From Streptomyces hygroscopicus (GTDB lineage Bacteria; Actinomycetota; Actinomycetes; Streptomycetales; Streptomycetaceae): a stretch of DNA of 64,000 bases. A program made the position numbers and the translations under genes. Below are positions 14,269 to 17,510 of the stretch, one piece after another. Under the pieces are notes generated by a model. It was given only the letters and a program-made list of their open reading frames with translations. It was not told the DNA's origin and did not search any database. The stretch spans positions 11,222,001 to 11,286,000 of the forward strand of contig CP018627.1 in the NCBI GenBank assembly GCA_002021875.1. The letters are read 5' to 3'. Every line of letters begins with the position of its first letter. Positions within the stretch are counted from its first letter, which is position 1.

Positions 14269-14522
14269 GTCTGTGTGGTCTCTTTCGGTTTCGGTGTGTG
14301 TCAGGACGGACGGGCAGGCGCGTCGGCACCCGGTGCGACGCGCCTGCGGACCGCGCGGCTCTCCGGCCCGCGGACGGGGTGCGGGCCGCGGGGGAGTGCC
14401 TCAGGAAATCGCGCGGGGTGCCGGCTTCCCGGCCGGGAAGTGGCCGGACACGAGGTGCCGAAGGTGATGAGCGGCGTGCGGGGGCGCCCCGGCGGAGCGG
14501 GGGGGTGCCTCTATGTCTTTCG

Positions 14523-15725
14523 TCAAGCGAGGCGTGGGGTTCTGGGCTCGTAGAAGGTGCCATCGCGGAGCATTGCGAACAGCACGCTGATGCGGTGCCG
14601 GGCCAGGCGGAGCAGAGCCTGCGTGTGGGTCTTCCCGCGGGCCCGGCAGCGGTCGTAGTAGGCGCGGGAGGCGGGATCGTGCAGGGCGGCGAACGCGGAC
14701 AGGAACATCGCGCGTTTGAGCTGTCGGTTGCCGCCTCGTGGTGCGTGTTCGCCGTGGATGGAGGTCCCCGACGACTTCGTCGTCGGGGCGAGGCCGGCGT
14801 AGGAGGCCAGGTGGGCGGCGGTGGGGAAGCTGGTGCCGTCGCCGACGGTGACCAGCAAGGTGGCGGCGGTCCTGACCGCGACCCCCGGAATCGAGGTCAG
14901 GACCGGGGAAAGAGGGTGAGCCTCCAGCAGTTGCCCGATCTGCGCTTCCAGGGCTCGTCGCTGTTCGTGGACGGCGGCGAGCGAGCGGGCCAGGGACGGG
15001 ATCACGACGTCGAGCGTGCCGGTCCCGGGAACGACGACGGTCTGCTCGTCGAGCGCGTCGAAGACCTCGTCGATCAGCCGCTGAGCCATGCGCGGGGCCC
15101 TGGGCCGGATCACCTCGACCAGCCTGCGCCGCCCGGCCTTTCGCAGTGCGGCCGGAGATCCGTAGCGTTCCAGCAGCCAGGTCACCGCGGGGTGGTCCAG
15201 GCGCGGCCCCAGGACGCGCTCCAGGCTGGGGTGGAACTGGACGAGCAGGCCGCGTATCCGGTTGGAGGTGCGGGTGGCCTCAGCCGCGAGGTCCTGGTCG
15301 AAGCCGACCAGAACGGTCAGCTCGGCGGTGATCTCGTCGGTCACCTCGAGCGAGCGCAGGGTGTGCGGCATCGTCCGCGCGGCGTCCGCGATCACCGCGG
15401 CGTCCTTCGCGTCGGTCTTCGCCTCACCCGGGTAGAGGTCGGCGATCCGCCGCATGGCCAGGCCCGGCAGGTAGGCGACCTTGCAGCCCGCGTCCCGGGC
15501 GACCGTGAGCGGGAGGGCGCCGATGGAGGCGGGCTGGTCCACGATCACCAGGACGGTGCCGAACTTCGCCGCGAGCTTGTCGAAGACAGCCCGCAGCTTC
15601 GGCTCACTGTTGGGCAGTTGCTTGTCGAAGACCCTTTTGCCGGCCGAAGTCAGCCCGTGACCGTGGTGGGCGCTCTTGCCGACGTCCAGGCCGAGGAAGA
15701 CGCCTACGTCGTCGATGTCGTACAA
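14523..15725 (-). CDS. IS110-family DEDD transposase, copy 1
   Basis: A 400-residue recombinase. The N-terminal RuvC-like DEDD domain is visible as LGLDVGKSAHHG (first Asp), VIVDQPASIG and GEAKTDAKDAAVIADAAR. The C-terminal transposase_20 domain has LTSIPGVAVRTAATLLVTVG and YAGLAPTTKSSG with the catalytic Ser. The TTG start at 15725 is preferred because GGGAGG lies just upstream; ATG 15878 would extend the protein into the non-coding end. Family knowledge: such enzymes are guided by a bridge RNA encoded in the element. It is intact and differs from copy 2 at three residues. Confidence 0.9.
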   Translation of the reverse strand: MYDIDDVGVFLGLDVGKSAHHGHGLTSAGKRVFDKQLPNSEPKLRAVFDKLAAKFGTVLVIVDQPASIGALPLTVARDAGCKVAYLPGLAMRRIADLYPGEAKTDAKDAAVIADAARTMPHTLRSLEVTDEITAELTVLVGFDQDLAAEATRTSNRIRGLLVQFHPSLERVLGPRLDHPAVTWLLERYGSPAALRKAGRRRLVEVIRPRAPRMAQRLIDEVFDALDEQTVVVPGTGTLDVVIPSLARSLAAVHEQRRALEAQIGQLLEAHPLSPVLTSIPGVAVRTAATLLVTVGDGTSFPTAAHLASYAGLAPTTKSSGTSIHGEHAPRGGNRQLKRAMFLSAFAALHDPASRAYYDRCRARGKTHTQALLRLARHRISVLFAMLRDGTFYEPRTPRLA

Positions 15726-15987
15726 CCCATCCTCCCGAACAGGGCTCGTGCGGTGCTGGCCAGGGTGATGGCGCCGTACGCGCGCATCCACGTTATGCAG
15801 ACCTGCCGCCCGCAATCGGCCTCGCGTTGCACCAGGCCAGGCGGTAGTCGGACCTCTCATCAGCGTCTCCCACGGCACCCCTCGGGCCCGGTGACACCAC
15901 CCCCCAGGTCATGCCTTCGACAGGGGGGAACAGTCATGCCGGGCCCGGAGGCCAGCGGCCCTCTTGCAGGACCGCCAAGAAGATAAC
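15726..15987 (-). ncRNA. Structured non-coding end of IS110 copy 1, bridge-RNA candidate
   Basis: The 262 bp upstream of the transposase contain nested stems. CCCTCGGGCCCGG (15879-15891) can pair with CCGGGCCCGGAGG (15939-15951), and inside it CCCCCC (15900-15905) pairs with GGGGGG (15923-15928) around a 17-nt loop. In the IS110 subgroup the bridge RNA is encoded at exactly this position. Seen: location and stems. Inferred: that this is a bridge RNA. Its exact ends and guide loops were not resolved. Confidence 0.45.
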
Positions 15988-16009
15988 GGGGGTGCCTCTA
16001 TGTCTTTCG

Positions 16010-17212
16010 TCAAGCGAGGCGTGGGGTTCTGGGTTCGTAGAAGGTGCCGTCGCGGAGCATCGCGAACAGCACGCTGATGCGGTGGCGGGCCAGGCGGAGA
16101 AGGGCCTGCGTGTGGGTCTTCCCGCGGGCCCGGCATCGGTCGTAGTAGCTGCGGGAAGCGGGATCGTGCAGGGCAGCGAACGCGGACAGGAACATCGCGC
16201 GTTTGAGCTGGCGATTGCCGCCTCTGGGGGCGTGCTCGCCGTGGATCGAGGTTCCCGAGGACTTGGTCGTAGGGGCGAGGCCGGCGTAGGAGGCCAGGTG
16301 GGCCGCGGTGGGGAAGCTGGAACCGTCGCCGACGGTGACCAGCAAGGTGGCGGCGGTCCTGACCGCGACCCCCGGAATCGAGGTCAGGACCGGGGAAAGA
16401 GGGTGAGCCTCCAGCAGTTGCCCGATCTGCGCTTCCAGGGCTCGTCGCTGTTCGTGGACGGCGGCGAGCGAGCGGGCCAGGGACGGGATCACGACGTCGA
16501 GCGTGCCGGTCCCGGGAACGACGACGGTCTGCTCGTCGAGCGCGTCGAAGACCTCGTCGATCAGCCGCTGAGCCATGCGCGGGGCCCTGGGCCGGATCAC
16601 CTCGACCAGCCTGCGCCGCCCGGCCTTTCGCAGTGCGGCCGGAGATCCGTAGCGTTCCAGCAGCCAGGTCACCGCGGGGTGGTCCAGGCGCGGCCCCAGG
16701 ACGCGCTCCAGGCTGGGGTGGAACTGGACGAGCAGGCCGCGTATCCGGTTGGAGGTGCGGGTGGCCTCAGCCGCGAGGTCCTGGTCGAAGCCGACCAGAA
16801 CGGTCAGCTCGGCGGTGATCTCGTCGGTCACCTCGAGCGAGCGCAGGGTGTGCGGCATCGTCCGCACGGCGTCCGCGATCACCGCGGCGTCCTTCGCGTC
16901 GGTCTTCGCCTCACCCGGGTAGAGGTCGGCGATCCGCCGCATGGCCAGGCCCGGCAGGTAGGCGACCTTGCAGCCCGCGTCCCGGGCGACCGTGAGCGGG
17001 AGGGCGCCGATGGAGGCGGGCTGGTCCACGATCACCAGGACGGTGCCGAACTTCGCCGCGAGCTTGTCGAAGACAGCCCGCAGCTTCGGCTCACTGTTGG
17101 GCAGTTGCTTGTCGAAGACCCTTTTGCCGGCCGAAGTCAGCCCGTGACCGTGGTGGGCGCTCTTGCCGACGTCCAGGCCGAGGAAGACGCCTACGTCGTC
17201 GATGTCGTACAA
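16010..17212 (-). CDS. IS110-family DEDD transposase, copy 2
   Basis: A 400-residue protein with the same DEDD and Ser motifs as copy 1 and three substitutions (Ala to Val in the ADAVRTMPH segment, Thr to Ser in GDGSSF, Ala to Ser in SRSYYD). TTG 17212 is the equivalent start. Both copies appear intact, so one or both could be active. Confidence 0.9.
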   Translation of the reverse strand: MYDIDDVGVFLGLDVGKSAHHGHGLTSAGKRVFDKQLPNSEPKLRAVFDKLAAKFGTVLVIVDQPASIGALPLTVARDAGCKVAYLPGLAMRRIADLYPGEAKTDAKDAAVIADAVRTMPHTLRSLEVTDEITAELTVLVGFDQDLAAEATRTSNRIRGLLVQFHPSLERVLGPRLDHPAVTWLLERYGSPAALRKAGRRRLVEVIRPRAPRMAQRLIDEVFDALDEQTVVVPGTGTLDVVIPSLARSLAAVHEQRRALEAQIGQLLEAHPLSPVLTSIPGVAVRTAATLLVTVGDGSSFPTAAHLASYAGLAPTTKSSGTSIHGEHAPRGGNRQLKRAMFLSAFAALHDPASRSYYDRCRARGKTHTQALLRLARHRISVLFAMLRDGTFYEPRTPRLA

Positions 17213-17474
17213 CCCATCCTCCCGAACAGGGCTCGTGCGGTGCTGGCCAGGGTGATGGCGCCGTACGCGCGCATCCACGTTATGCAGACCTGCCGCCCGC
17301 AATCGGCCTCGCGTTGCACCAGGCCAGGCGGTAGTCGGACCTCTCATCAGCGTCTCCCACGGCACCCCTCGGGCCCGGTGACACCACCCCCCAGGTCATG
17401 CCTTCGACAGGGGGGAACAGTCATGCCGGGCCCGGAGGCCAGCGGCCCTCTTGCAGGACCGCCAAGAAGATAAC
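17213..17474 (-). ncRNA. Structured non-coding end of IS110 copy 2, bridge-RNA candidate
   Basis: By eye the same sequence as 15726-15987, shifted by 1487 bp, with the same nested stems (outer arms 17366-17378 and 17426-17438; inner 17387-17392 and 17410-17415). Here the element end faces host sequence (GGGGGGTGTTTCC), not another IS copy. Confidence 0.4.
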
Positions 17475-17510
17475 GGGGGGTGTTTCCTGGCCACCGCAGC
17501 AGGTGGAGGC

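Follow-up and report, generated by a model that had tools for sequence, protein, structure and literature searches.

What does it mean that two transposons of one kind stand head to tail in the chromosome of Streptomyces hygroscopicus, and what does the long non-coding end at their joint encode? The window analysed here is the 64,000-nt stretch at positions 11,222,001 to 11,286,000 of contig CP018627.1 (assembly GCA_002021875.1), and the tandem consists of two 1487-bp elements of the IS110 group of insertion sequences (IS) on the minus strand, with 0 bp between them and the border at 15987/15988. An earlier note made from the sequence alone had described them as abutting without a spacer, and this holds; a family profile search matched both transposases to PF01548 (E 1.2e-49) and PF02371 (E 1.4e-21), and for the copy-1 protein there is a further match to NF033542 (IS110 family RNA-guided transposase), at 232.9 bits against a cutoff of 140. 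The IS110-group architecture is present, with a long left end (LE) of 262 bp and a short right end (RE) that extends 22 bp past the stop codon; the LE length, already given in that note, is right for the TTG start at 15725, which was picked by reading and on which it depends.

We consider it likely that the following account explains the locus as a whole. Two related, non-identical, ISSgr1-like elements would have come to lie head to tail when bridge-RNA-guided recombination inserted them into a poly-C target. Each LE is predicted to encode a bridge RNA with a 5′ stem-loop, a target arm carrying the left and right target guides (LTG, CCCCCC; RTG, GGGGGG), and a donor part carrying the left and right donor guides (LDG, AGAGG; RDG, CATAACG). 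The DNA of the target loop is itself a palindrome, C5-N17-G5, because the poly-C target makes LTG and RTG complementary, and an IS4-family lineage would insert in the middle of this palindrome with a 10-bp duplication, splitting the guide. Two sister copies in the source genome are occupied in this way, and both copies of the window are empty sites. The IS4 element in the target loop of these sister copies, outside the window, is more unusual than the tandem.

Related LEs were collected from the best 80 of 358 loci (L numbers below) found with the IS110 protein, together with relatives found by DNA, which yielded 104 LE starts and 102 RE ends. For the alignment, 63 LEs were picked at <96.5% identity from 76 distinct ones and L094 was left out as broken. 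The resulting 62-LE alignment folds into a 5′ stem-loop, a long target-binding arm and a donor part. Over 31 named pairs, 98.4% of the cells are paired and 61 cells are changed on both sides, compared to 22.5 in shuffles, which keep relatedness in, and at most 10 when the partner was slid. The nested stems listed in the earlier note find their place in this fold: 15879-15891/15939-15951 lies within the outer target-arm stem, and 15900-15905/15923-15928 is the RTG/LTG complement. Two LEs, L051 and L112, have the target-binding hairpin (~LE 49-97) deleted.

The clearest evidence for a bridge RNA is the match between its putative guides and the element ends. The five-base LDG core equals the right-end 5-mer in all 87 elements with both readable (17 of the 104 LEs lack one part); 82 of them have AGAGG, four related ones AGAGA and one AGGGG. 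At its variable base, the RDG pairs with the LE terminus in 92 of 97 LEs (87 T-A and five C-G pairs, with five disagreements; seven of the 104 had no motif), and the window's own RDG carries one mismatch to the LE terminus (CATAACG vs CGTTATC). Another candidate for the LDG, GAGGTGCC (~LE 107-114), was dropped, as it belongs to the target-arm stem whereas AGAGG (LE 131-135) co-varies with the RE. On the target side, the RTG is near-invariant across LEs, and the C and G runs of LTG and RTG fit poly-C targets; the two guides are mutually complementary because the target is poly-C. The LTG base adjoining the C-run agrees with the flank in 49 of 91 cases vs 36.7 in shuffles, and the neighbouring base in 22 vs 15.4 (p 0.011). 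The complementarity that the earlier note asked for, between the loops and the target or the donor joint, is present for the donor joint; for the target it has been put to a weak test: the best p, 0.001, is uncorrected, over 46 position-offset combinations and related rows.

Altogether, the fold with its two-sided changes and the donor guides that match the element ends support the candidate put forward in the earlier note, namely that the 262-bp LE looks like a bridge-RNA locus, with its parts in the order of the published bridge-RNA plan (PMC11208160). Several points weigh against this, apart from the weak target test: the LTG:RTG helix has no two-sided change in the 62 LEs, covariation contributes little to the energy of the fold (−2.82 of −57.99 kcal/mol), two folds disagree on the donor-part helices, and the LDG changes that are informative, five in number, represent few lineages, four being the related AGAGA elements. 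Expression of the RNA, circle formation and transposition are predicted from the sequence. It is highly improbable that a DNA or regulatory palindrome, and not a bridge RNA, underlies the LE structure. A search of Rfam gave no match at the gathering threshold anywhere in the window, and poly-C/poly-G pairing is trivial, both of which suit such a palindrome; it does not account for donor guides that co-vary with both element ends, or for the succession of 5′ stem-loop, target arm and donor part, which is the one described for bridge RNAs (PMC11208160).

The target was read from a relative, L233, which represents an empty site: its flanks are 90% and 93% identical to those of the tandem and are joined at a single GGGGG, which places the tandem in a poly-C run on the element strand. 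C-runs are likewise the site of most of the other copies and relatives, with a few exceptions in the flanks (e.g. L060, L066, L078). The G-tracts at the joints, which the earlier note took for the target core, read on the element strand as the C-run of target and donor, and the single GGGGG of L233 supports them as the place of recombination. By the same comparison, insertion occurred at a core common to donor and target without a longer duplication, and the exact core may lie anywhere within the C-run.

The joint has the composition of an RE-LE junction, as claimed before, with the right end of copy 2 directly adjoining the LE of copy 1 (RE-CCCCC-LE). Of 94 LE copies in which the left flank and the guide anchor could be read, five have a spacer-free RE-LE joint, with C-runs of C5 in the window, C6 in L018, L086 and L110, and C7 in L043. 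A promoter with fixed −35/−10 spacing across the joint was rejected; other promoter types are possible. The minus-strand TTGACG of the earlier note lies at 16013-16008 and not at 16016-16011, its distance of 22 nt to TATCTT was given correctly, and the TTGAC-to-TAT spacing in the five tandems (window 22, L018 23, L043 24, L086 23 and L110 23 nt) tracks the C-run length. A normal fixed-spacing promoter is therefore not present at the joint; the misfit counts against the account proposed here, and the promoter suggested earlier does not hold as a normal one.

In all five tandems the joined elements differ from each other, with similarities of 74% over 684 bp in L043, 85% over 419 bp in L086 and 87% over 657 bp in L110, whereas those of L018 are comparable only in pieces (52 bp at 90% and 95 bp at 69%). 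Such heterotypic tandems probably formed by insertion beside a resident end: the second element would enter in circular form next to the resident, since the C-run and one half of the target are retained there. Alternatively, a one-copy circle might have crossed over with the resident copy by homologous recombination to give the head-to-tail pair, and the product would look identical. The window copies share a 1.15-kb block that is identical except at one site, they swap right-end types at a sharp breakpoint (element 1141-1153), and the copies in the source genome are mosaics of one another, all of which would suit this route. We nevertheless regard it as rather unlikely, although it may apply to the window's own pair: the other four tandems join less similar elements, which are poor substrates for it, and their C6/C7 joints, compared to C5 in the window, fit recombination within the C-run.

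Copy 1 and copy 2 differ at 26 positions, 25 of which are within the 335 bp adjoining the right end; the copies are therefore not identical. The source genome (12.0 Mb, one contig) also contains a single copy at 2.55 Mb that is 100% identical to copy 1, two more near-full-length copies, L010 (4.92 Mb) and L011 (0.10 Mb), and shorter matches. Copy 1, copy 2, L010 and L011 vary at 120 sites. As far as element position 1150, copy 1 is the same as L010 and differs from L011 at 93 sites; beyond it, there are 23 differences to L010 and 2 to L011. Recombination or gene conversion between copies would explain this mosaic pattern. In the region at window 14835-14905 (element 1083-1153), the breakpoint directly follows a 39-nt stretch that is 82% self-complementary, possibly a recombination hot spot. 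L011 shares LE 1-161 and the nested IS4 with L010 without any difference, and its remainder to 1150 differs at 93 sites, as if gene conversion had copied the LE and IS4 over. Two further loci of the source genome, L012 and L013, are IS110 LE pieces without a full element, and L012 keeps an intact C5-N17-G5 site.

Two of the five near-full-length copies in the source genome (L010 and L011, both outside the window) carry an IS4-family element exactly between LTG and RTG. They share the same insert of 1399 nt including the terminal C, with inverted repeats CAATGCCGTTGC...GCAACGGCATTG and the 10-bp repeat GAAGGCATGA. The inserts are assigned to the IS4 family via relatives: the profile scan was made on the homologous copy in L145, which matches PF13006 (Nterm_IS4), PF01609 (DDE_Tnp_1) and NF033592 (230.1 bits, cutoff 115). 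IS4-family target duplications are ~9-13 bp long; the one here is 10 bp and not 11 bp, as L024 and L145 show. Relatives of the insert, found via the IS110 protein, lie at the same LE point in L024, L025, L034, L075 and L092, and five of the best 80 of the 358 loci found with this protein carry IS4.

Searches with the IS4 DNA covered the source genome, plasmids, 392 Streptomyces genomes and 391 genomes of the order; few candidates per genome were scored, and the IS4 counts below are counts among the matches listed. Seven of eight plasmid records were examined from the first search and three more of 63 from the second, the others being already included or covering ≤37% of the query. There are 43 copies with a readable end, and 38 of the 40 classifiable ones are in an IS110 LE; the IS4-seeded searches alone gave 34 of 36. 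Two copies, L152 and L168, are outside IS110 LEs, and three, L162, L163 and L164, are unclassifiable, although L163 by eye resembles an IS110 LE with another guide. Left out of the counts were duplicates (L153, equal to L034; L190, equal to L010; L158, part of L180), repeats of L152, L154 and L151 (L186-L188), and ~65%-identity relatives in the genome G091 (L198, L227, L228), which are not in an IS110 LE.

The IS4 copies in LEs (n=38) lie forward relative to the host in 22 cases, inverted in 12 and are hybrid in four. In the hybrids (L144, L146, L156 and L180), both flanks are the same half of an IS110 LE in inverted orientation; these same-side flanks point to recombination between IS4-bearing IS110s. 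Both ends are in the LE in 17 non-hybrid copies, 12 of which have identical 10-bp repeats. IS4s that diverge by 3.4% and 6.5% occupy hosts that diverge by 41% and 42%, and host switching is therefore clear. It is very unlikely that all copies descend from a single ancient insertion into one IS110 that was then spread by IS110 transposition. The distances between IS4s correlate weakly with those between hosts (Mantel r 0.36, p 0.002, 15 copies), and L010 and L011 have an identical insert, as such descent would predict; against it are both orientations, 10-bp repeats that vary by host and follow each host's own loop, the near-identical IS4s in hosts ~41% different, and the presence of IS4 in just the five loci noted above of the IS110-protein search.

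What the IS4 recognises is indicated by its sites. The IS110 site in the source genome is C5-TGTC-GAAGGCATGA-CCT-G5, with 17 nucleotides between the runs, and some hosts have N16 or a shorter C-run. Outside IS110, L152 occupies CCCCC-ATC-GCCTTCCATG-CCTC-GGGGG, also C5-N17-G5 with a 10-bp repeat. Uniform C5-N17-G5 targeting was set aside as the whole explanation: the source genome has 30 intact C5-N17-G5 matches (control pattern 18), four of them in IS110 LEs, to which two occupied ones add, and 85 matches with spacers of 16-18 (control 68). The preference for LEs exceeds what the motif predicts and therefore involves further recognition, selection or co-inheritance. It is conceivable, at lower probability, that IS4 reads any C5-N17-G5 and that insertions elsewhere were lost by selection, the LEs being a safe haven. 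L152 in such a palindrome, L168, whose single readable side has GGGGG at the expected distance, and LEs as presumably non-essential DNA would agree with this, yet LEs hold six of 32 such sites in the source genome and 34 of 36 copies; the binomial probability, 8e-23, assumes independence, which the copies violate, and takes the site share from one genome.

We favour, with somewhat less assurance than the account as a whole, an IS4 lineage that has the bridge-RNA target loop as its main home, reads the LTG/RTG palindrome, inserts in either orientation, splits and probably silences the guide, and switches between hosts ~40% apart. Counting against it, five of the 17 complete copies have unequal repeats (two by one base), 16 of the 38 were read at one end only besides the four hybrids, and the other end of L154 is cut by another element. 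Nor are the 38 copies 38 events, as L148 and L149 are one locus in two strains and the IS4s of L010 and L011 are identical. L168 is outside IS110, the motif by itself is insufficient for the LE preference, and the correlation between IS4 and host distances means that part of the association is co-inheritance. The counts also leave out distant IS4s (~41-57% protein identity; L170-L179, L199-L218) and end-less internal fragments.

The insertion parts LTG from RTG by 1.4 kb, and a bridge RNA split in this form would probably be unable to guide. In 12 of 15 IS4-bearing loci there is an open stretch of at least 331 codons (some frame) in the 1.1 kb downstream, where the host recombinase begins, which is not proof of an intact gene. 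L113 (LE at 1288, reverse strand) has near-identical 10-bp repeats at the IS4 site, GAATCGATGA and GAACCGATGA, one base apart, which may be a footprint of IS4 excision. In L154, L162 and L164 the end of another element (ACTCTGTTGGCGATC...) interrupts the IS4 end at CATG, and beyond the cut in L154 there is a long transposase-like open reading frame (ORF), which we take to be of IS1182 type.

The tandem itself belongs to a known kind of element. IS621 and other IS110-group bridge-RNA elements (PMC11208160) likewise have a long LE with the bridge RNA, a short RE, an IS110-family recombinase, an RE-LE junction, two guide pairs and short ATA/TAT motifs beside the donor junction (ACATAGAGG...CGTTATG in most relatives, CGTTATC here). 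Unlike IS621, the window elements target low-specificity poly-C, their LTG and RTG are mutually complementary, and the promoter spacing at the joint misfits. The IS1111 group with its seekRNA (PMC11187229) also has a guide RNA from a non-coding end and a circular intermediate; this RNA is placed in the RE (PMC11208160), whereas it is in the LE in the window elements. ISSgr1-like IS110 elements of Streptomyces show ~83-90% DNA similarity over 95-100% of the element among 40 plasmid matches listed, one of which, at 84%, is annotated as ISSgr1 family; the name ISSgr1 rests on this one GenBank annotation. They differ in that the window pair is in tandem and has sister copies with IS4 in the LE.

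Among IS4-family elements, IS231A reportedly favours the ends of another transposon, Tn4430, where its target is palindromic and flanked by G/C; that site is a terminal repeat, whereas the one described here is in a guide-RNA gene. The copies of ISRm22 (IS4 family) are all in REP (repetitive extragenic palindromic) palindromes of Sinorhizobium, nine according to the text and ten according to a table of PMC1525189; the choice of palindromes is therefore already known in this family, and differs here in that the palindrome lies in the guide-RNA gene of another transposon, as its target loop. A literature search by titles and the beginnings of abstracts, with preprints and most subscription papers beyond its scope, retrieved no report of an IS in a bridge-RNA gene, and no passage on one was found in PMC12859917 and PMC9208149.

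The tandem is located between a flavodoxin-fold gene and a DsbA-like gene, according to the profile search, and the coordinates of its features are given in the table.

Features of the tandem IS110-group pair in the window (window coordinates; LE positions are numbered within the left end)
Feature	Position	Strand	Remarks
IS110-group copy 1, the downstream one when read along the element (body type A, right end beta)	14501..15987	-	100% identical to the 2.55-Mb copy
IS110-group copy 2, the upstream one when read along the element (body type A, right end alpha)	15988..17474	-	
DEDD recombinase coding sequence, copy 1, 400 aa, TTG start assumed	14523..15725	-	profile matches
DEDD recombinase coding sequence, copy 2, start set by analogy with copy 1	16010..17212	-	profile matches
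Copy-1 LE, non-coding 5′ end with putative bridge-RNA locus	15726..15987	-	
Copy-2 LE, sequence identical to copy-1 LE	17213..17474	-	
Predicted bridge RNA, LE 13-203; ends inferred from conserved block	15785..15975	-	
5′ stem-loop, LE 13-33	15955..15975	-	
Target-binding arm, LE 35-114	15874..15953	-	
LTG, GTTCCCCCC, LE 57-65	15923..15931	-	
RTG, CTGGGGGG, LE 81-88	15900..15907	-	
Empty IS4 site of copy 1, GAAGGCATGA, LE 70-79, inside C5-N17-G5	15909..15918	-	10 bp duplicated around IS4 in sister copies
Empty IS4 site of copy 2, same sequence as copy 1	17396..17405	-	
LDG, AGAGGTCC, LE 131-138	15850..15857	-	
RDG, CATAACG, LE 191-197, reverse complement of CGTTATG	15791..15797	-	
Conserved right end of copy 2, CTTGACGAAAGACATAGAGGCACCCCC	15988..16014	-	makes the RE-LE joint with copy 1
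Conserved right end of copy 1	14501..14527	-	
Chromosomal flank left of the tandem	14490..14500	.	last two bases in G-run 14499-14505 (C-run on element strand)
G-run (C-run on element strand) at the right border of the tandem	17475..17480	.	before TGTTTCC

Among the related IS110 elements, the right end of L018, L026, L037, L041, L052, L077, L101 and L104 lies hundreds of bp to ~1 kb past the transposase match, and L026 and L037 have ORFs between the match and the distant right end; by their layout, these eight loci appear to be IS110 elements with passenger DNA. The Streptomyces phage TurkishDelight (H94) encodes a 68% identical IS110-type recombinase, which is annotated as a hypothetical protein.

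The 104 LE starts with donor-guide covariation are useful for work on poly-C-targeting bridge recombinases. If the reading of the IS4 insertions is true, this IS4 would be a transposon that parasitises the guide-RNA gene of another transposon and, as far as the literature was searched, the first to use the guide region of a bridge RNA as a landing site. It raises the question of whether splitting LTG from RTG turns an RNA-guided transposon off, or whether the RNA works with a long loop or in trans, and it suggests why a self-complementary guide may be a liability.

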